Shown here piece after piece: positions 7,050-39,037 of a DNA stretch of 64,000 nucleotides; position 1 is the first letter of the stretch, and every line of letters begins with the position of its first letter. Made by a program: the position numbers and the translations under genes. This stretch comes from Rhodocyclales bacterium. GTDB taxonomy: Bacteria > Pseudomonadota > Gammaproteobacteria > Burkholderiales > Rhodocyclaceae. Under the pieces are notes generated by a model. It searched no databases and had not been told where the DNA came from. It saw only the letters and a list, made by a program, of their open reading frames with translations. The stretch lies in assembly GCA_028292485.1 (NCBI GenBank), contig JAQGMG010000043.1, positions 62,001 through 126,000 on the forward strand. Reading direction: 5' to 3'.

Positions 7050-8045
7050 GTGGCACTGCTTCTACTATCAAACCGATCCATATCCCGTGCAGGCGTTCGC
7101 GCTGTCTCCATGCGCGACGTCGTATCTGTATCACTGGTGGCATGTGCCGTTGTGAGCGCCCTGGCCTTTGCGGCAGGGCTGGCAATCGGCAAGCAAACTT
7201 CCGTTGAAGAACCCCGTCTGAGCGTCGTTCCAGTCACTGACCCGGTGCGCGACGGCTTCGCCATGCAGCGCCTTGGCGAGATGTCTGCGCGCATGCTGGC
7301 GCTGGAAAGCAATGCCACCAATCTGCTGAAGAAGCTCACGGGTATCGAGCAGATACAGGGCAGCCTCAACAAGCTCGACAAGGCCGGCATCGCCCCAAAG
7401 ATCAATCTCGCGCCACCTGTCTTGCCAGTGGTTAACGGCGCGCCGAAAGATGCCGCTGGTGGGCCCTCTTTGGCCCCCGTGTGCGACATCAGTGCAGTGA
7501 AAGCAAGTCCGGCCCCAACGCTTGAAGGTGTCAAGAAAGCAGAAGGCGCGCTGAGCTGCCTGCAATCATTGCTCGACCGCATAGAACAATCCACCGCGAC
7601 GCGCAGCGTTGCCTTCATGGCGTTGCCTAACCGTCAGCCTGTCATTGGCGCCGAACTGGGTTCGCCATTCGGCAATCGCGTCGACCCCATCAACGGCCAC
7701 ATTGCGTTTCATCCCGGGCTTGATTTCGCGGCGCCGATCGGCTCCGACATTTATGCGGCGGGCGGCGGCAGGGTTCGCTTTGCAGCCTTTCAGAGCGAGC
7801 TGGGAAACATGGTTGAAATCGACCACGGCAATGGCCTCATCAGCCGCTACGCGCACTCCTCAAAGCTGTACGTGAAGGAAGGTGACATCGTTGCGCCTGG
7901 CCAGCGTATTGCCGCCGTTGGCTCAACCGGCCGCTCCACGGGACCCCATCTTCATTTCGAAATCTTGCACGAAGGGCGCTACGTCGACCCGGCCCAGTAT
8001 CTGACGGGAGTGTCACGTGACGGCAATGTTTCGCCAAAATCGTGA
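7050..8045 (+). CDS. Membrane-anchored M23 family metallopeptidase
   Basis: Probable peptidoglycan DD-endopeptidase in the periplasm. Using GTG 7050, which follows GAGGGAGGGAG, it is 331 residues. It begins with a short tail (VALLLLSNRS), one membrane span around residues 25-48, a periplasmic linker, then the C-terminal lysostaphin-type domain. Zinc ligands are visible as His221 and Asp225 (HPGLD) and His302 (HLHFE); His269 (YAHSS) is the expected catalytic histidine. All are retained, so an active enzyme is expected. The next gene overlaps its end by 29 bases and a bactofilin follows, a combination known from cell-shape systems. The exact substrate bond is not shown by the sequence. Confidence 0.9.
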   Translation: MALLLLSNRSISRAGVRAVSMRDVVSVSLVACAVVSALAFAAGLAIGKQTSVEEPRLSVVPVTDPVRDGFAMQRLGEMSARMLALESNATNLLKKLTGIEQIQGSLNKLDKAGIAPKINLAPPVLPVVNGAPKDAAGGPSLAPVCDISAVKASPAPTLEGVKKAEGALSCLQSLLDRIEQSTATRSVAFMALPNRQPVIGAELGSPFGNRVDPINGHIAFHPGLDFAAPIGSDIYAAGGGRVRFAAFQSELGNMVEIDHGNGLISRYAHSSKLYVKEGDIVAPGQRIAAVGSTGRSTGPHLHFEILHEGRYVDPAQYLTGVSRDGNVSPKS

Positions 8046-8412
8046 GCGCCTCACCCATCGTCTGAGTAGTTCGTCCTACTCCCTGACCATTCCGGGCGGG
8101 AAGCGCGTCCTGCCGTGGATATTGTTGGCCGTTGCAGTGTGTGTTTGCGTTGCTGTCTACGTTTTGCCCGGCACGCCGTCGCCCGCCATGCAGATGCGTG
8201 CGGACGTCGGGCGATTGCAGCAAGAGGTAGACCGCTTGCAGCACGAAGTGAAGTTTGGCGAAATGCGTCTGCAGCAGGAAGTGGCGACGCGCGAGGGGCT
8301 TGCACAGCAGATGGATGTGCAGGCGCAGAAGCTACGCCAGGCCGAACAAGAGCTGGAGTTTTTTCGCGGGCAAAAGAACATGGCCGGGCGCGACAAGGTT
8401 TTACGTAAGTAG
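8017..8412 (+). CDS. Small single-span coiled-coil membrane protein (DUF6776-like)
   Basis: 131 residues: a basic N-terminus, one hydrophobic span at about residues 33-52 (VLPWILLAVAVCVCVAVYVL), then a heptad-rich coiled coil (about 65-122). No enzyme motif. GTG 8017 is preferred because GGGAG sits six bases upstream; ATG 8026 is the alternative. It overlaps the peptidase gene by 29 bases and precedes the bactofilin gene, so it may link the peptidase to the bactofilin scaffold. That role is inferred from position. The DUF assignment is from memory. Confidence 0.75.
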   Translation: MTAMFRQNRERLTHRLSSSSYSLTIPGGKRVLPWILLAVAVCVCVAVYVLPGTPSPAMQMRADVGRLQQEVDRLQHEVKFGEMRLQQEVATREGLAQQMDVQAQKLRQAEQELEFFRGQKNMAGRDKVLRK

Positions 8413-8484
8413 ACGCTCCACGTTCATCGTTTCTTGTTTTTAGTCTGTTTCTGTTTTTAGTTTCTGACCGATGAGGGCCTGCCC

Positions 8485-8904
8485 ATGTTTGGCAAGAAGA
8501 AAGATTCGTTCATCGAGCTGACCAAGCTTTCCAGCCTGGTCGCAAGCAACGTGGAAGTTACTGGCGACCTCGGTTTCGTGGACGGCCTGCGTATCGATGG
8601 ACACGTGCGTGGCAACGTCCTCAGCAAGGTCGGCGCCAAGAGCCTGCTGGTGCTCAGTGATCAGGGCTGCGTGACGGGCAACGTTCGCAGTCATGACGCC
8701 ATCATCAACGGTGTGATCATCGGCGACCTCGAAGTCGAGCACTTCCTGGAGCTGCAGGCGAATGCGCGCGTGACAGGAAATATCACCTATCGCCAGCTGC
8801 GCATGGATTGCGGCGCCTCGGTCGATGGCAAGTTGAACAAACTCACGGACGCCAGCGCCGTATCGAATGTCGTCGAGCTACCCAACAGCGCGGCAAGTGC
8901 CTGA
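8485..8904 (+). CDS. bacM: Bactofilin
   Basis: Polymer-forming cytoskeletal protein of the DUF583 family, 139 residues. After the short tail MFGKKKDSFIELTKLSSLV comes the right-handed beta-helix core, seen as repeated G-x-[VI] turns (VTGDLGFVDGLRIDGHVRG and INGVIIGDLEVEHFLEL). Bactofilins assemble nucleotide-free filaments at the membrane and often recruit M23 peptidases to chosen sites of wall remodelling; the peptidase is two genes upstream here. The symbol is the generic one; no orthology to a specific studied bactofilin is claimed. Confidence 0.9.
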   Translation: MFGKKKDSFIELTKLSSLVASNVEVTGDLGFVDGLRIDGHVRGNVLSKVGAKSLLVLSDQGCVTGNVRSHDAIINGVIIGDLEVEHFLELQANARVTGNITYRQLRMDCGASVDGKLNKLTDASAVSNVVELPNSAASA

Positions 8905-14721: not shown

Positions 14722-14954
14722 TGTGCAAAACTGAAGGACGGTAAGGACAAGACAGACAAGATAGGGCAAGATGCCCGACGTCAATTTTAACCCCGGATAC
14801 GGGTAATCACCGGTATTGCCGTGTAATAGCGCGCCGTGTACCCGATAAACAGTGATGTTCCAACGATCAAGCTGCCATGGCCGTGCTAAGGTCGGGCGAC
14901 ATTGTCATAAACCGCAGCGCATTTTTTGCGCAAATGCAAAAACAGGAGGGACGT

Positions 14955-15965
14955 ATGACAGGTTTTGCCCGTAGCAGATTCGTTGCAACTTTTCCGGCAG
15001 GACTCATGTTTCTTGTATGTCTGACGCTGTCGGTCTGGAGCAGCGCCTTTGCTGCCACTACTTTTGTTTCTGCCGATGTGCAGAATCGAGATCAGCCTGC
15101 TGTCAAAGCCGTAGAGCACATGTCGCAGCTGCTATCGACGCGTTCAAACGGAGAGCTCACCGTCCAGGTTAAAACCAATGGCGAGCTCGGCACGGAAGCG
15201 GAGGTTCTGGACAAGTTGCGCAAGGGAACGCTCGACATGGGCCGACTGAGTCTGGCTGCATTTGCCGATTCGGTGCCAGCGGCGAAGTTGATGAGCCTGC
15301 CCTATCTTTTCCGCTCCCGCGACCACTTATGGACCGTATTGCACGGTGATTTCGGCACGAGACTCGAGGGCGAAATCCAGAAGAGCGGGGTAGTCGTGAT
15401 CATGTATCTGGACGGCGGTGCGCGTAACTTCTATGCGAAGAAACCGATTCGCAATCGCGATGACTTCAAGGGACTGAAGTTTCGTGTGGAGTCCTCTGCG
15501 ATTTATAAGGATCTGATCACGGCACTTGGTGGCACACCGGTTGCCGTCCCTTACGACAAGGTCAGTGATGCGCTGCGTGAGGGCGATATCGATGGGGCGG
15601 AAAGCAACGTCATCTCATATGTCAGCGGAGACCACTACAAACAGGCGCGATATCTGAGCCTTGATGAACATTCGATGGTGCCGGACGTGTTGGTCATGTC
15701 GAAGAAAGCCTGGGCAAAACTGACGCCTGCGCAGCAAGAGCTGCTCAAGATGGCGGGCCTTGAAAGCGAGGACTTCATGGCCAAACTTTGGCAGGACAAA
15801 GAGCGCGACGCTCTGGCATTCGCCAGGAAAAACGGCGTGACGGTCCTTAATAAATCGCAGCTTTCGATGACCGGGATCGAGTCGTTTGCGGTCAGGCAGT
15901 ATTCGCGCTACGTGCAGGATCCCAAGGATCTGGAAACCGTACTGCAGATTGTCAGCACCAAGTAA
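14955..15965 (+). CDS. Orphan TRAP-type solute-binding protein (DctP family)
   Basis: 336 residues: a signal peptide (residues 1-31, ending SSAFAATT) and a complete DctP-type ligand-binding domain. Arg177 in GLKFRVESS corresponds to the arginine that holds the ligand carboxylate in the family. HSMVPDVLVMSKKAW is a typical C-lobe segment. ATG 14955 has an excellent AGGAGGG site; the frame's upstream extension is not needed. No DctQ or DctM membrane subunits are near: the neighbours are divergent bioF and a convergent VC0807-type gene. The same domain, equally complete, is fused to a chemoreceptor at 32209-34335. The ligand cannot be read from sequence; a dicarboxylate or other carboxylated solute is typical. 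Confidence 0.88.
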   Translation: MTGFARSRFVATFPAGLMFLVCLTLSVWSSAFAATTFVSADVQNRDQPAVKAVEHMSQLLSTRSNGELTVQVKTNGELGTEAEVLDKLRKGTLDMGRLSLAAFADSVPAAKLMSLPYLFRSRDHLWTVLHGDFGTRLEGEIQKSGVVVIMYLDGGARNFYAKKPIRNRDDFKGLKFRVESSAIYKDLITALGGTPVAVPYDKVSDALREGDIDGAESNVISYVSGDHYKQARYLSLDEHSMVPDVLVMSKKAWAKLTPAQQELLKMAGLESEDFMAKLWQDKERDALAFARKNGVTVLNKSQLSMTGIESFAVRQYSRYVQDPKDLETVLQIVSTK

Positions 15966-31026: not shown

Positions 31027-31091
31027 CAGCAGTCGGGCTTTGTGGCGCGATCCAGCCGCGTCCTATGCGCGCCCTTGCGCATCATCACGTC

Positions 31092-31112
31092 AAATTCATG
31101 TCAAATGAATTT
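31092..31112. promoter_or_regulatory. Dyad and direct repeat upstream of sigma-54 site
   Basis: AAATTCAT (31092-31099) and ATGAATTT (31105-31112) form a perfect 8-bp inverted repeat with a five-base centre. The same stretch also reads as two GTCAAAT copies (31089-31095 and 31100-31106) spaced 11 bases apart, one helical turn. It ends two bases before the sigma-54 candidate and is probably a regulator site. Confidence 0.45.
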
Positions 31113-31113
31113 C

Positions 31114-31129
31114 AGGCACATTATCTGCT
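31114..31129 (+). promoter_or_regulatory. Sigma-54 promoter candidate for the PEP-CTERM gene
   Basis: AGGCACATTATCTGCT matches the -24/-12 consensus TGGCACG-N4-TTGCT at GG (31115), CAC, and TGCT, with GG-to-GC spacing of exactly 12. The expected transcription start is near 31140, leaving a leader of about 60 bases. PEP-CTERM genes in some betaproteobacteria are controlled by the PrsK/PrsR pair with RpoN, which fits. Confidence 0.5.
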
Positions 31130-31203
31130 GGTGGCGTGATGCTGCACTCTCGCGTCCAACGCAGCGAGCACGAATAGACGCGTTCCGCTGCAAGGAGCGA
31201 GCA

Positions 31204-31938
31204 ATGAAATCCTTTTCTCCTGTCTGGTCCCTGGGTTCCATCGTCACACGCGCCACTGCCGCAATTGCCCGCATCAAGTCCGCATCGGGAACCATGAGCG
31301 CAAAGCTTCCAGGCAGCATCGTGCTCCTGGCAACGATGTGGCATGCCGGCCTTGCCAACGCCGTCGTGCTTTCAGGCAGCTTCACCGGCGTCGCCGCCAA
31401 CTCGACATGGGGCACCATTGCCGACGGGACGCCCGTCAATGGCACGTTCCGTTTTGACAGCAGCTTCCCGTTTACCCTGATCGAAACCGATGGCGTTTCG
31501 CATGCGCACTACGAGACGTTCAACGGTGGCGTCCCGCCTGACCCGATACACTTCAGCTTCTTTGTGCCATCTGTCGGGCTGAGCTTCGACGTCAACAGCT
31601 TTGGCGTTCTCGGGGTCGATCTCGAGGACACTGCCGCAGGTCAGACAATCCGCTTCAGTTCGTATTTCATTCATGGCGCGGGCGCTGCATTCACGCTGGC
31701 AGGTCTGGACGGTGCGTTCTTCGACGGCCTGGACCTGTCTTCACTGCACAGCGGGGCCGCCGATCTTTCCGGCTCGCTGGCGCATCTGGCGGCGCATGGC
31801 GGCATCGAGAGCGATGTTTATCTTGCAAGCCTGGTCTTTGATCCTGCAGACGTACCCGAGCCCCCTGCCCCGCTGCTGCTCGGCACCGGCTTCATCATCC
31901 TGCTGGCCGGCAAGCGCGCGCGAAAGCGTAAATATTGA
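31204..31938 (+). CDS. PEP-CTERM sorting-signal exported protein
   Basis: 244 residues. A rather long N-terminal hydrophobic segment (LPGSIVLLATMWHAGLANA, about residues 37-55) acts as export signal. The body is Gly/Ser/Phe-rich, beta-type with no enzyme motif. The C-terminus is VPEPPAPLLLGTGFIILLAG then KRARKRKY: a Pro-Glu-Pro motif, membrane span and basic tail, the exosortase recognition signal. Such proteins are cleaved and anchored by exosortase, often with exopolysaccharide; no exosortase gene is in the window. ATG 31204 has AAGGAG upstream. Confidence 0.82.
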   Translation: MKSFSPVWSLGSIVTRATAAIARIKSASGTMSAKLPGSIVLLATMWHAGLANAVVLSGSFTGVAANSTWGTIADGTPVNGTFRFDSSFPFTLIETDGVSHAHYETFNGGVPPDPIHFSFFVPSVGLSFDVNSFGVLGVDLEDTAAGQTIRFSSYFIHGAGAAFTLAGLDGAFFDGLDLSSLHSGAADLSGSLAHLAAHGGIESDVYLASLVFDPADVPEPPAPLLLGTGFIILLAGKRARKRKY

Positions 31939-32208: not shown

Positions 32209-34335
32209 ATGACCATTACCCGCAAGATATTTGTGTTGATCTGTATTGCCTTGCTGACAACTGCCGCCGTATTGGGAGTTGCCGTATGGGGAGTGTCGAG
32301 TGCCCTGAGTGTCGCCACGCAGACTGTGCACGACGACCTGGTTGGAACGCGGACGCTGACACTGGTGGTCGGCGTGATAGGTCTTGGCGTCATGGCTGTC
32401 GTGGGCTGGCTGATGGCACGCGCCATCGTCAAGCCGCTGGAGGATGTGCAGAACGCCATTACCCGCACCGCAGACAAACTCGACTTTACCGATCTGATTG
32501 AAGTGACCTCCAGTGATGAGCTGGGCCGGATCGTCGAAGCGTACAACCGCCTGATCGGCAAATTGCGCAGCAGTTTCACGGAAATCCAGACCTCGACGGC
32601 GCAGATGCTCGACGTCACCGAAGAGGTCGATCGCTCCTCACGCAAGATCGCACGCAATTCGCAGATGCAGAGCGATGCCTCCACCAATATGGCAGCCTCG
32701 GTCGAGGAAATGACCGTCAGCATCTCGATGGTCGCGCAGCAAGCCAAGGATGCCAGTTCGCACACCCAGGAGTCGCGCAATATCGCCGAGCACAGCGCCG
32801 AGGTCATCGTCACCACGCTGACTGGCATCCAGACCATTTCCGATTCGGTACGCGAGGCCGCCGGCCGCATCAAGGCGCTGCGCACCGACTGCGACAGCAT
32901 CTCGACTGTCGCCAAGATGATTCGCGAAATCGCCGAACAAACCAATTTGCTGGCACTCAATGCCGCCATCGAAGCAGCGCGTGCAGGAGAACAGGGGCGC
33001 GGCTTCGCCGTGGTTGCGGATGAAGTGCGCAAACTCGCCGAACGCACTGCCAAATCGACACAGGAAATCAGCAGCCTGCTCTCGCGCATGCAGGACAGCG
33101 CCAAGGCGGCTGTCAACAGCATGGTCAGCACGGAAGAAGCGGTCGGCCAGGGCGTGGTCAATGCCCGCGCAGCCGGCGAATCGATCGACCGCATCAAGGA
33201 TGGCTCCAGCGCTGCTGCCAGCGTGGTGGAAGATATCTCCGGTGCGATCCGCGAGCAGCAGGCCGGCAGTACCGCGATTGCCCAGAACATCGAGCAGATG
33301 GCGCAGATGAGCGAACAGAATTCCGCAGCCGCGGCCGCATCGGCCGAGGCCATCGGACGCATGTCGAGCATGAGCCGCGAAATCGCACGCGCGCTTTCTG
33401 CCTACAGGGTCGATGCCAATGCGCAACAGAAGATCCAGCTGCGCGTGGCCGACATCCAGAGTGACGACTTCCCGACCGTTCGCGCCCTCAAGACGATGAG
33501 CGAGATGCTGAGCCAGCGCACCAACGGGCGCATCAGCCTGAAGGTCTATTCAGGTGGCTCGTTCGGTTCCGAAAAGGAAGCGCTCGAACAGATGAAGAGC
33601 GGCGGCCTGGACATGGCGCGTATCAACATCTCGCCGCTCAACAAGAGCTGCCCGGAAACGATCATCCCTACCCTGCCCTTTCTGTTCCGCTCCATCGAGC
33701 ACAGGCAGAAAGCGCTCGACGGCGCACAGGGCGACGCGATCCTCGCATCCTGTGCCAATGAAGGCTACGTGGGCCTTGCCTTCTATGACGCTGGCGTGCG
33801 CTGCGTTTATACGAACAAGCCGATCAGATCGATGTCCGACATGCGTGGCATGAAGCTGCGCGTGCCGCAGTCCGACCTGTGGATCGCCGTGGCTGCCGCA
33901 ATGGGCGCAACCCCTACGCCGATGTCGATTGACGAGATCGTTGCCGGCGCACAGATGGGCCTGATCGATGGCGCAGAAAACAACCTGCTGGCCTACGAAA
34001 GCTTCAAGCACAACCAGGTGTTCAAGTACTTCTCGCATACCGACCACTCCATGGCACCGGACCTGATCGTGTTCTCGAAGAAGAGCTGGGATGCGCTCCC
34101 CGAAGAAGACCGGAAGATCATCAGGGATGTCGCCAAAGAATCAGTAACGCACATGCGCCGCTTCTGGGCTGAGCGCGAAGTCGCAACGAAGAAGGCATTG
34201 ATGGCGGCCGGATCGAACTTCGTGACAGGCGTCGACAAAGGACCGTTCCAGATGGCCATGCGGCCGGTATACGACAAGTTCGTCACCACCGACAAGCAAC
34301 GCGCACTGCTCAAGGCCATTCAGGATATCAACTGA
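32209..34335 (+). CDS. Chemoreceptor fused to a C-terminal TRAP solute-binding (DctP) domain
   Basis: 708 residues in one uninterrupted frame. TM1 is about 6-30, a periplasmic loop of only about 19 residues follows (31-49), TM2 is about 50-70, HAMP about 71-123, and then the methyl-accepting helical bundle to about 400. Its tip ([38 protein letters not shown]) starts near residue 240. From about 405 to the end is a complete DctP-type domain: [20 protein letters not shown], then PFLFRS, then MRGMKLRVP with the ligand-binding arginine (Arg551), then [15 protein letters not shown]. It has no signal peptide before it and no membrane span after TM2, so topology places it in the cytoplasm. It is about 304 residues long and colinear with the free-standing binding protein at 14955-15965. 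ATG 32209 has GCTGGAG upstream. The receptor and binding parts are each certain; the function of the fusion is inference. Confidence 0.92.
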
Positions 34336-36677: not shown

Positions 36678-37967
36678 CAACGCTTGCAGGCGCGCAAGAT
36701 CGTGTTTGATCACACGCTCGCCGATATCGGTGCGGTAGCGGAGATTCGGCACGACTACCTTGCGTGCCAGTTCGTAAGCACAGGCGCTTGCATCGGCAAG
36801 CGACTCACCGACGCCGGTTGCCACACCCACGTAACCGGTCATTCCGCTCGTCACGAGCCGGGACTCACGCATGGCGACTTCGGCGAAATGCAGGGCAGCG
36901 CGATCTGCCTCTGTCATGCCCGCACGGAACATGATCGGCGAGCCTTTCGATAGTTCTTCATAACCGTAGCGATAGGGAAAGGGCGGGACCGTCAGCACTA
37001 CTCCGGTTGCAAAACCGGTGCGTGTGGCCACTTGCCGCATTTCGGATTGCCGCAGCATTTTGCGGAAGATCGCGTCCCACGGCTCGGTGTGCAGCGCCTC
37101 GCAGATCGCGAAACCCGGATAGCCAAAGCGGCTCGTAAACTCCAGCGGCCACAGGCCATGCTCATTGGCAATGAGATTAAGGTTGATGTAACCGCAATAG
37201 CCGCTGGCCCCCAGCTGGCTGACCATCCGCGCCAGCGTAGCGTCGAAGATGCGTTCGGCACCGCGATACGTAACCACGGTCCCCATCTCACCTGTCAGCT
37301 CGCCAAGATTGCCATTGAACAGGCGCTTGTGTTCGAAGTCGAGACACGCCGGTTGCAAGAATTCGCGGCCGTTGAAATAGGCACCCACGCCTACTTCAAC
37401 GCCCTCGATATGCTCCATCAATACGAAGTCGGGCTGTGCCGACTCATGCCAGTGATCGCGATGCTCGATCAGCAGCGCAATCATGTCACGCCCGTCTTCG
37501 AGCTCGCCGATGTAGTTGCGGGTACGTGCACTGTCGGCACCATTGCTCTTGAATACGTAGCGGCGTCGTGTATCGCGTACGAAATCCATGGCCGCGTCGA
37601 AGTCCGTAAAGCCATGGCTCGCTGCTATGGGCAGCCCGAGCCGGTGCAGAACCTGTTGGCCAAATTCGCGGTCACCTTCGATTCGATCCCCGAACGCGCT
37701 GCCGCCGATCACCTGGTAGCCCTCGCGGCGAAGATCGTCCTGGCACGTACCTTTGAGTGAAGACTCGAAAAGCACGATGCCGTCCTGACCGGCTTCACGG
37801 ATCCAGTCCAGTTCATTGCGCCAATCGTGCGTAAACTGGAGCATGCCGCCGAAAATATCCTGTGCGTCCGGGTGCTCGACGAATACGCGAACCTCATGCC
37901 CTGCAGCGGCCAGGCGGTAATACATATCGCCGAGATCGCAATACTCGCCGATGCCGAGACACCTCAT
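36660..37967 (-). CDS. ATP-grasp ligase, PurD-like
   Basis: 435 residues resembling phosphoribosylamine-glycine ligase in fold: N-terminal Rossmann-like MRCLGIGEYCDLGDMYYRLA, then ATP-grasp with RRRYVFKSNGADSART, LMEHIEGVEVGVGAYFNG, LGELTGEMGTVVTY and INLNLIANEHGLWPLEFTSR. The last holds the metal/ATP residues. It is unlikely to be the housekeeping PurD, given weak similarity in the N-domain and its neighbours. Its start overlaps the stop of the methyltransferase gene upstream (ATGA), so the two are translationally coupled. It probably joins a carboxylate and an amine; the substrates are unknown. Confidence 0.75.
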   Translation of the reverse strand: MRCLGIGEYCDLGDMYYRLAAAGHEVRVFVEHPDAQDIFGGMLQFTHDWRNELDWIREAGQDGIVLFESSLKGTCQDDLRREGYQVIGGSAFGDRIEGDREFGQQVLHRLGLPIAASHGFTDFDAAMDFVRDTRRRYVFKSNGADSARTRNYIGELEDGRDMIALLIEHRDHWHESAQPDFVLMEHIEGVEVGVGAYFNGREFLQPACLDFEHKRLFNGNLGELTGEMGTVVTYRGAERIFDATLARMVSQLGASGYCGYINLNLIANEHGLWPLEFTSRFGYPGFAICEALHTEPWDAIFRKMLRQSEMRQVATRTGFATGVVLTVPPFPYRYGYEELSKGSPIMFRAGMTEADRAALHFAEVAMRESRLVTSGMTGYVGVATGVGESLADASACAYELARKVVVPNLRYRTDIGERVIKHDLARLQALGYYAV

Positions 37968-39037
37968 TGCGCTGCACGTTCTTGCGTGGCTTGCCCTTGA
38001 GTCGCGCGTCGTATCACCAGGGCGATTGCGGCAATGCGTTCGACATTTTCATAGCCTGGACTCTCCAGTTCTTCGCCGAACACATCCGGATCGAGCTCGG
38101 TATAGGTGTAGTCCACGCCTGCCTCGCGCAGCGTCGATTCGACCGAAGCCCGGAAGACGTCCTTGCCATCGACAATGGGAACGCCTGAGTAAAGGATCAG
38201 CGTGCCATCGGGTGACAGGCGTGGAAGACCTTCGAGCACGATGCGTGTGGCCAGGCCCGAGCCATATGCGCCACCGCCATGTCGATAGACGCGCGCATCG
38301 GCGTCCAGCAGATAGGGTGGGTTGGAGACAATCAGGTCGAATTGCCCGTCAAGTTGAGCGAAGAGGTCGCTCTGTACCATCGTGACGCTGGCGATGCCGG
38401 CCAGGTGCGCATTGACACTGGCATACTGCAGCGCAGTCGGATTGATGTCAGCCAGGAAAAGCGCGGCACCCGGGTGTTTCAAGGCCGCAGCAATGCCGCC
38501 CGGCCCTGCCCCGCAGCCTATATCGACAATGCGTTTCAGTGCGTTGCGCTGGCTAGCTCTAGCCCCGCGTTGAAGCTCGTGTTCAACCAGCGCAACGAAT
38601 CGATAAGTATCGGGGCCGAAGAATACGGCGTCCGACCGGGTAGTCGGATATGACGAATGCACGTAGATGGTCTTGCGCGAGTCTTGCGCATGGCGGATCG
38701 TCGAGAAGCGCACATTGCAACGCAGCTTCGCCGTTTGCCCGACAGCACACTCGACTGCATGTTCGATGACATTGGCTGCTTCGAGCAGCGAAATCATTTT
38801 CGGCGGCAAGGCTGCGCGCTCGAACGGTTTGCTCCAGCCAAAAATGTCGCGCAATGTCCTGCCCTCATCTGTGCAGTAACTGCTATCCGTGACGCAGCGG
38901 CTCAGAACACGGGCGTGGCTTAGCGGTGTAATGGTGGTGAAATCGTAGTTGCTGTCCAGCAGCAATCTACCAAGCTCGTACAGTGCGTCCTGGTGCTTGT
39001 CGGGGGACTGGTGGTCCATGATGTCGTCGGCGTTCAT
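37964..39037 (-). CDS. Class I SAM-dependent methyltransferase (NPPY type)
   Basis: 357 residues from ATG 39037 (MNADDIMDHQSPDKHQ); ATG 39019 is an alternative. SAM site RIVDIGCGAGPGGIAAA and catalytic-type NPPY in DLIVSNPPYLLDADARVY, as in N-methyltransferases of the PrmC/RsmC group. The N-terminal 150 residues are unfamiliar and may bind the substrate. The downstream ATP-grasp gene overlaps it by four bases. Divergent from the phospholipase D-family gene across 99 bases. Confidence 0.75.
   Translation of the reverse strand: MNADDIMDHQSPDKHQDALYELGRLLLDSNYDFTTITPLSHARVLSRCVTDSSYCTDEGRTLRDIFGWSKPFERAALPPKMISLLEAANVIEHAVECAVGQTAKLRCNVRFSTIRHAQDSRKTIYVHSSYPTTRSDAVFFGPDTYRFVALVEHELQRGARASQRNALKRIVDIGCGAGPGGIAAALKHPGAALFLADINPTALQYASVNAHLAGIASVTMVQSDLFAQLDGQFDLIVSNPPYLLDADARVYRHGGGAYGSGLATRIVLEGLPRLSPDGTLILYSGVPIVDGKDVFRASVESTLREAGVDYTYTELDPDVFGEELESPGYENVERIAAIALVIRRATQGQATQERAAQ

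Follow-up and report, generated by a model that had tools for sequence, protein, structure and literature searches.

The 64,000-nucleotide stretch of Rhodocyclales DNA analysed here, referred to as the window, encodes on its forward strand a chemoreceptor that carries a complete TRAP-type solute-binding (DctP) domain at its C-terminus (Table 1). Pfam searches and hydropathy profiles agree with the domain order read by an earlier note on this DNA, namely a first membrane helix, a loop, a second membrane helix, a HAMP domain, the tip of a methyl-accepting chemotaxis protein (MCP) and a full DctP domain in one frame. The two membrane helices are the only hydrophobic segments of the protein, and 26 residues separate their cores rather than the 19 counted previously. 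Pfam matches span residues 186–367 for MCPsignal (E 1.8e-40) and residues 415–692 for DctP (E 2.7e-73; profile positions 3–283 of 286), and the C-terminal part was identified by NCBIfam as the TRAP substrate-binding protein TRAP_S1 (226 bits against a cut-off of 50). Residues 242–280, around the hairpin tip, are presumably the kinase-contact region of chemoreceptors. The gene directly upstream (31042–31938, +) has zero Pfam matches at E 0.0001 and ends in a tail that we take to be PEP-CTERM-like.

Table 1 Features of the fusion gene, in window coordinates.
Feature	Position	Strand	Basis or conservation
MCP-DctP fusion gene	32209..34335	+	Single open frame, ATG 32209, stop 34335, 708 aa
TM1, aa 7-25	32227..32283	+	Hydropathy
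Periplasmic loop, aa 26-51, too short for a sensor	32284..32361	+	4HB here in the closest unfused receptors tested
TM2, aa 52-70	32362..32418	+	Hydropathy
HAMP, aa 68-120	32410..32568	+	Pfam PF00672, E 6.7e-9
Signalling coiled-coil hairpin, aa 121-397	32569..33399	+	Pfam PF00015; modelled helices 104-258 and 265-397
Hairpin tip region, aa 242-280	32932..33048	+	Near-invariant across aligned fused proteins
Short linker, aa 398-407	33400..33429	+	Closest unfused receptors end at aa 401
DctP (TRAP solute-binding) domain, aa 408-708	33430..34332	+	Pfam, PDB sequence matches, model, fold match
Arg531, predicted ligand contact	33799..33801	+	19/19 fused genes, 41/41 standalone relatives
Arg551, predicted carboxylate-binding arginine	33859..33861	+	19/19 fused genes, 41/41 standalone relatives
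Segment aa 574-584 around the HiSiaP Glu172 position (TRAP docking)	33928..33960	+	
Asn591, predicted ligand contact	33979..33981	+	17/19 fused genes, 41/41 standalone relatives

An AlphaFold monomer model, built from an alignment of 45 sequences, reached a mean pLDDT of 82.5 and a pTM of 0.62, with block pLDDT values of 86–97 over the DctP part (approximately residues 408–708) and of 55–85 over the hairpin; the orientation of the domains is not fixed by this model. The nearest fold to the DctP part is Bpro_3107 of Polaromonas (4MIJ; Z 44.3, rmsd 1.3 Å over 299 residues, 48% identity), and the six best PDB sequences matched with E values from 9e-95 to 5e-78. A viral fold library returned 7 matches at E ≤0.001, which were at most partial and led to DctP or a TctC-like protein.

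The fused genes form a small family

A paralogous fused gene in the same genome is 56% identical to the one in the window, and a related genome holds a fused frame (L072) that is 95% identical and begins at residue 272, where its contig starts. In total, at least 19 distinct fused genes were recovered from at most 14 genomes, mostly of Betaproteobacteria and two of Gammaproteobacteria; 16 are whole, two (L072 and L075) are cut by contig ends, and one is broken. These comprise 16 genes from a named scan, the window gene, its paralogue, and L032. The named scan applied two short peptide patterns to 84,980 species, each represented by one genome, and the best 80 of its 501 confirmed stretches comprised 16 fused and 64 unfused genes. 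Betaproteobacterial fusions among these 80 come from the Rhodocyclales MAG RYN_554 (two), Uliginosibacterium sp. 31-16 (two), U. aquaticum, Candidatus Dactylopiibacterium carminicum, the MAGs CTSoil_126 (two) and CTSoil_114, a Formivibrio MAG (two), UBA1310, Propionivibrio limicola and P. dicarboxylicus, while the gammaproteobacterial ones come from a Thalassocella MAG and Alteromonadaceae bacterium Bs31.

Of 395 genomes surveyed from the same bacterial family, 10 (in 3 of 68 genera) have a fused match with E ≤1e-100; one of the ten (G179) has two in-frame stops, and some of the matches halt at contig ends. Samples of the order (399 genomes), class (369) and phylum (398) gave no further fusion at 1e-100, 1e-80 and 1e-80, respectively, and four rows that were inspected, including a long open frame from the phylum sample (G1189), proved to be unfused. 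These samples do not bound the spread of the fusion, since the named scan found two gammaproteobacterial cases, and neither does the named scan, since it used two short patterns and the best 80 of 501 stretches. Spread on plasmids was rejected: tblastn matched 3,958 of 72,556 plasmid records, and 0 had one place covering 80% of the query.

Several members show features of their own. In-frame stops break the fusion gene of Candidatus Dactylopiibacterium carminicum (L074), one of them at the joint of the two halves, and the same is seen in G179. The C-terminal residues of one CTSoil_126 protein (L078 7000–7119) no longer match the rest of the family beyond residue 694 or so, which looks like a frame change near the end. 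Among the fused loci compared, an exported-type DctP gene with a signal-peptide-like start comes next only in the three Uliginosibacterium fusions seen (L073 7234–8241, L009 347–1384, and L081 approximately 7659–8651), identified by Pfam for L073 and L081 and by eye for L009.

No description of an MCP hairpin followed by DctP was found in open-licence papers, and the order was not met in excerpts of three of them (PMC3180692, PMC8547431, PMC10942642). This is consistent with the earlier statement that the architecture is not a described family. The architecture belongs to a small conserved family and is not a single case.

Origin of the fusion

In the phylogeny of the DctP part, all 19 fused sequences group in one clade (support 100/100), and the closest sequences outside it (joined at 96/91) comprise three DctP proteins from the same bacterial family, including one from the window genome (L003) that stands with a DctM. 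Four distant DctP rows (L005, L006, L152 and L153) were left out of this final tree and of the position counts given below. The fused sequences also form one clade in a tree of the receptor part (SH-aLRT 98). Because each half forms one clade, a single fusion followed by duplication and spread would be the simplest history, and the nesting of the two gammaproteobacterial genes within the fused clade suggests that these were acquired by transfer.

Among unfused receptors with an intact frame, the 13 closest are 55–64% identical to the fusion protein, and all of them end at query residue 401 (four of the 13 were aligned end to end). Where the fused proteins have the short loop, a 4HB_MCP_1 sensor of approximately 150 residues is present in 6 of 6 of these receptors that were tested. 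At about 26 residues, the loop of the fusion protein is too short for a sensor, in line with the earlier judgement. The DctP part starts at approximately residue 408, which by eye corresponds to the start of the mature transport proteins after their signal-peptide-like starts. Therefore, an outside sensor appears to have been lost and an inside one gained.

Predicted location of the DctP domain and the joint

In all 16 fused rows that cross the joint, hydropathy analysis found the stretch after the hairpin free of membrane segments; of the 15 rows that include the N-terminus, 14 have two such segments, and L081 shows one at the cut-off used. The hairpin has to face CheA, and the chain does not re-enter the membrane after it; the DctP domain is therefore predicted to be cytoplasmic, as had been proposed. 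Gln366 and Arg412 lie 46 or 47 residues apart in all 16 rows spanning the joint, whereas the periplasmic loop ranges from 10 to 41 residues among fused rows. As estimated from the model and the sequence, the hairpin turns at approximately residues 257–266, and its returning helix ends at residue 397, about level with the end of HAMP. A short linker of near-fixed length fits mechanical coupling better than a loose tether.

Ligand contacts, selection and divergence

Excerpts of PMC7660916 name two arginines and an asparagine (Arg150, Arg170 and Asn210 in STM3169) as common to uronate-binding TRAP proteins. With one offset of 381, these residues correspond to Arg531, Arg551 and Asn591, and the window protein holds the complete uronate-group set of contacts. 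Arg551 had been singled out before as the ligand arginine, and its equivalence to Arg170 supports the choice. Contact positions 455 and 618 are variable in the fused set. Nei–Gojobori estimates, rough at a dS of 0.7–0.9, gave dN/dS ratios between the window gene and L072 of 0.038 for DctP and 0.015 for hairpin residues 272–401, and between the paralogue and L079 of 0.093 for DctP and 0.099 for the receptor half. The ratios for DctP are thus of similar magnitude to those for the receptor half. By these estimates the DctP domain is under strong purifying selection and has been kept by selection.

The position counts used 41 standalone DctP relatives (27 were used in an earlier comparison). Among 76 positions conserved in at least 95% of them, 43 persist in 85% or more of the fused proteins, and eight persist in at most 30% (421, 423, 546, 553, 568, 577, 578 and 581). 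For example, Tyr421 is replaced by His in 16 of 19 fused genes and by Phe in the window gene, and Gln553 is replaced by Met, Pro or Ile in 18 of 19, with Pro in the window gene. Both positions lie near ligand contacts in the chain and are taken as belonging to the pocket side.

Three of the eight lost positions fall in segment 574–584 (Fisher p 0.007, for a region picked after a first look). Excerpts of PMC9352664 report that HiSiaP docks on its transporter through Asp58, Ser60 and Glu172, which map to positions 464, 466 and 576 through an alignment of Aggregatibacter SiaP. In the fused set, the usual residues are gone at 464 and mostly gone at 466, Glu576 is kept in 13 of 19, and Tyr578, present in 41/41 transport relatives, is found in 0/19 fused genes. 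Within the window genome, all three DctP proteins encoded beside a DctM keep a Glu-Val/Leu-Tyr/Phe docking motif, whereas five of the six encoded elsewhere (the two fusions, L005, L006, L158 and L160) are without the aromatic residue, which L160 keeps; this contrast involves small numbers and was noticed after the fact. A loss of the TRAP docking surface in the fused proteins is suggestive only. A changed ligand explains the data as well, because the changes at 421, 423, 546, 553 and 568 are equally clear, and either a changed ligand or release from transporter docking could explain the diverged positions.

Genome context and likely ligand

Within 8 kb of L003, the DctP gene of the window genome nearest to the fused clade, are a DctM, an SMP-30-type lactonase, an NAD-epimerase-family gene and, on the other strand, an L-arabinonate dehydratase (983 bits against a cut-off of 882), and the locus looks like a sugar-acid degradation cluster. 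No neighbour gene is common to all 14 fused loci compared, and no TRAP subunit is present among the fusion-gene neighbours searched in Pfam. No DctM stands beside the fusions, as the four DctM genes of the genome are on contigs C49, C7, C28 and C14 and the fusions are on C31 and, for the paralogue, C1. The sugar-acid cluster at the nearest relative in the genome and the uronate-binding nearest structures point to a hexuronate or aldonate, which may be the ligand; the diverged positions and the absence of a neighbour common to the 14 loci make this assignment tentative.

The host genome has five matches to the kinase-coupling CheW family and one to the FlhA family (FHIPEP) of flagellar export. 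Of its six MCPsignal matches, two are the fusions, so that a third of the detected chemoreceptors are of the fusion type.

Two other DctP genes of this genome were noted. A free-standing gene of 312 codons (G000:C50, approximately 37109–38046; L161 6109–7047, − strand) has a GTG start directly after an in-frame TGA, with AAGGA upstream and no signal peptide in frame. It lies 2.4 kb from the first of three Alginate_lyase2 genes, is without the aromatic docking residue, and possibly encodes a second cytoplasmic DctP. The other, in the window at 14877–15965 (+), encodes a DctP protein that is 35% identical to the fused domain over the match and has a signal-peptide-like stretch after a further start; no DctM is on its contig, and the neighbouring genes that were searched encode an aminotransferase, a hydrolase and an AAA_26 protein, the last read here as biotin-type.

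Comparison with known systems

The fusion protein shows every chemoreceptor sequence feature tested, including a hairpin with a conserved tip and a HAMP domain after a membrane helix. The whole fold and the carboxylate arginine of TRAP solute-binding proteins are present, and signal-peptide export and a neighbouring DctM are absent. The protein thus has a DctP domain by fold and ligand residues, yet on these features is not a TRAP binding protein, since it is predicted not to be exported and no DctM is found on either fusion contig.

Bpro_3107 (4MHF/4MIJ) and Bamb_6123 (4N15) share the whole DctP fold with the fusion over approximately 300 residues, at 48% and 40% identity, and together with STM3169 they have two arginines and an asparagine in common with it. 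However, proteins of this uronate group are periplasmic parts of transporters, whereas the DctP of the fusion is predicted to be cytoplasmic, is fused, has no signal peptide and differs at some of the positions conserved in at least 95% of the 41 standalone relatives. The 4HB-type chemoreceptors of the same family (for example L045, L046 and L052) resemble the fusion in both membrane helices, HAMP and hairpin, but such receptors have a periplasmic 4HB domain in 6/6 tested and a C-terminal domain in 0/13, and the fusion is the reverse.

In TlpD of Helicobacter pylori and other CZB receptors, the sensor is likewise C-terminal to the hairpin and inside the cell, which offers a working analogue for coupling in the fusion; excerpts of a preprint on TlpD structures suggest how the C-terminal CZB domain can move the hairpin (PMC12871147). 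CZB is a zinc-binding four-helix bundle and TlpD is soluble with an N-terminal PAS domain, whereas the fusion is membrane-anchored and ends in a two-lobed DctP domain. Pfam detected DctP and no CZB at the C-terminus of the fusion up to E 0.1. By position, the fusion would work like receptors with a C-terminal internal sensor, its DctP domain being located directly in the chain and its topology predicted. Binding proteins can also feed chemoreceptors from outside, as MBP does with Tar. Excerpts on Sphingomonas A1 describe how the pectin-binding SPH1118 feeds chemotaxis (PMC9314435, PMC9602780). In both systems the solute-binding protein is separate and extracytoplasmic, unlike the fusion.

Discussion

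On the evidence of sequence and modelled structure, we think it rather probable that the fusion is a membrane-anchored chemoreceptor that senses an internal, probably imported, sugar acid through a sensor moved from outside to inside. In this reading, a 4HB-type receptor would have lost its periplasmic sensor while keeping the two membrane helices to anchor it, and a sugar-acid TRAP binding protein, in its mature form and without its signal peptide, would have been joined to the natural C-terminus of the receptor. Held by a near-constant linker at the membrane end of the hairpin, next to HAMP, the clam-like DctP domain would bind a small carboxylate, most likely an imported hexuronate or aldonate, in the cytoplasm. 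Closure of this domain would move the hairpin, and thereby the CheA kinase, much as proposed for the C-terminal CZB domain of TlpD, and the cell would probably be steered by what has already been taken up. The sequence itself establishes the architecture, the lineage, the lack of further membrane helices, the retention of ligand contacts and the purifying selection; the cytoplasmic ligand and its identity, the coupling and the sign of the response are what we infer here. The earlier suggestion of internal carboxylate sensing stands as the likeliest role, with a sugar acid (uronate or aldonate) more likely than the generic carboxylate it had named.

An internal DctP domain might instead sense a ligand other than a sugar acid, such as a C4-dicarboxylate, another metabolite or an aromatic acid. 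The changes at 421 and 553 in most fused proteins would fit such a ligand, as would the absence of a shared operon among the fused loci and the presence among the hosts of Propionivibrio species, which are fermenters of dicarboxylates and hydroaromatic compounds. We nevertheless regard it as unlikely, as the closest relatives by sequence and by fold are uronate binders, the nearest relative in the genome lies in a sugar-acid cluster, and the three contacts are kept in the window protein. It is more doubtful still that the domain has ceased to sense and serves as a structural or protein–protein module, be it a tether for adaptation enzymes, a spacer, or a partner for an enzyme or transporter: the C-terminal ends of receptors often serve as tethers, and a surface conserved in transport relatives is partly changed, but the ligand arginines persist in all 19 fused genes, purifying selection extends across the whole domain, and the linker is short and near-fixed in length, unlike a flexible tether.

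The atypical topology that the earlier note had entertained, with the DctP end in the periplasm as a normal TRAP-type sensor, would return the fold to where it is at home, and most of the standalone relatives listed do start with a signal-peptide-like stretch (by eye); the chain would, however, have to cross the membrane after the hairpin, and with no third membrane segment in 16 of 16 joint-crossing rows this arrangement is very improbable. A frameshift near 33420 or an assembly error joining two genes, for which nothing but the novelty of the domain order speaks, is refuted by at least 19 distinct fused genes from independent genomes (among them the L072 frame, the paralogue and 16 more), by two fused genes per genome in five genomes, and by dN/dS far below 1 on either side of the joint.

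Returning to an internal sugar-acid sensor, we consider that the fused genes make up a small, conserved family of receptors in which the sensor has been relocated, and that this family probably arose once. Solute-binding proteins usually count as extracytoplasmic components, and receptors built in this way as sensors of the outside; the fusion family would show a sensor that moved across the membrane within one receptor lineage. It is conceivable, although we hold this with some doubt, that TRAP binding proteins have more broadly been turned into intracellular metabolite sensors, fused to a chemoreceptor in one lineage and possibly free in another, since a DctP without a signal peptide occurs near alginate lyase genes in the same genome, and that cells are thereby steered by the internal pool of an imported sugar acid and not by the level of that acid outside. 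A transport-type binding domain on the inside in place of an outside sensor would allow metabolism-dependent chemotaxis, the tracking of compounds that cells have already taken up, to be tested cleanly and with ligand specificity, with the unfused 4HB sister receptors of the same family and the related transport DctP of the same genome as ready controls.
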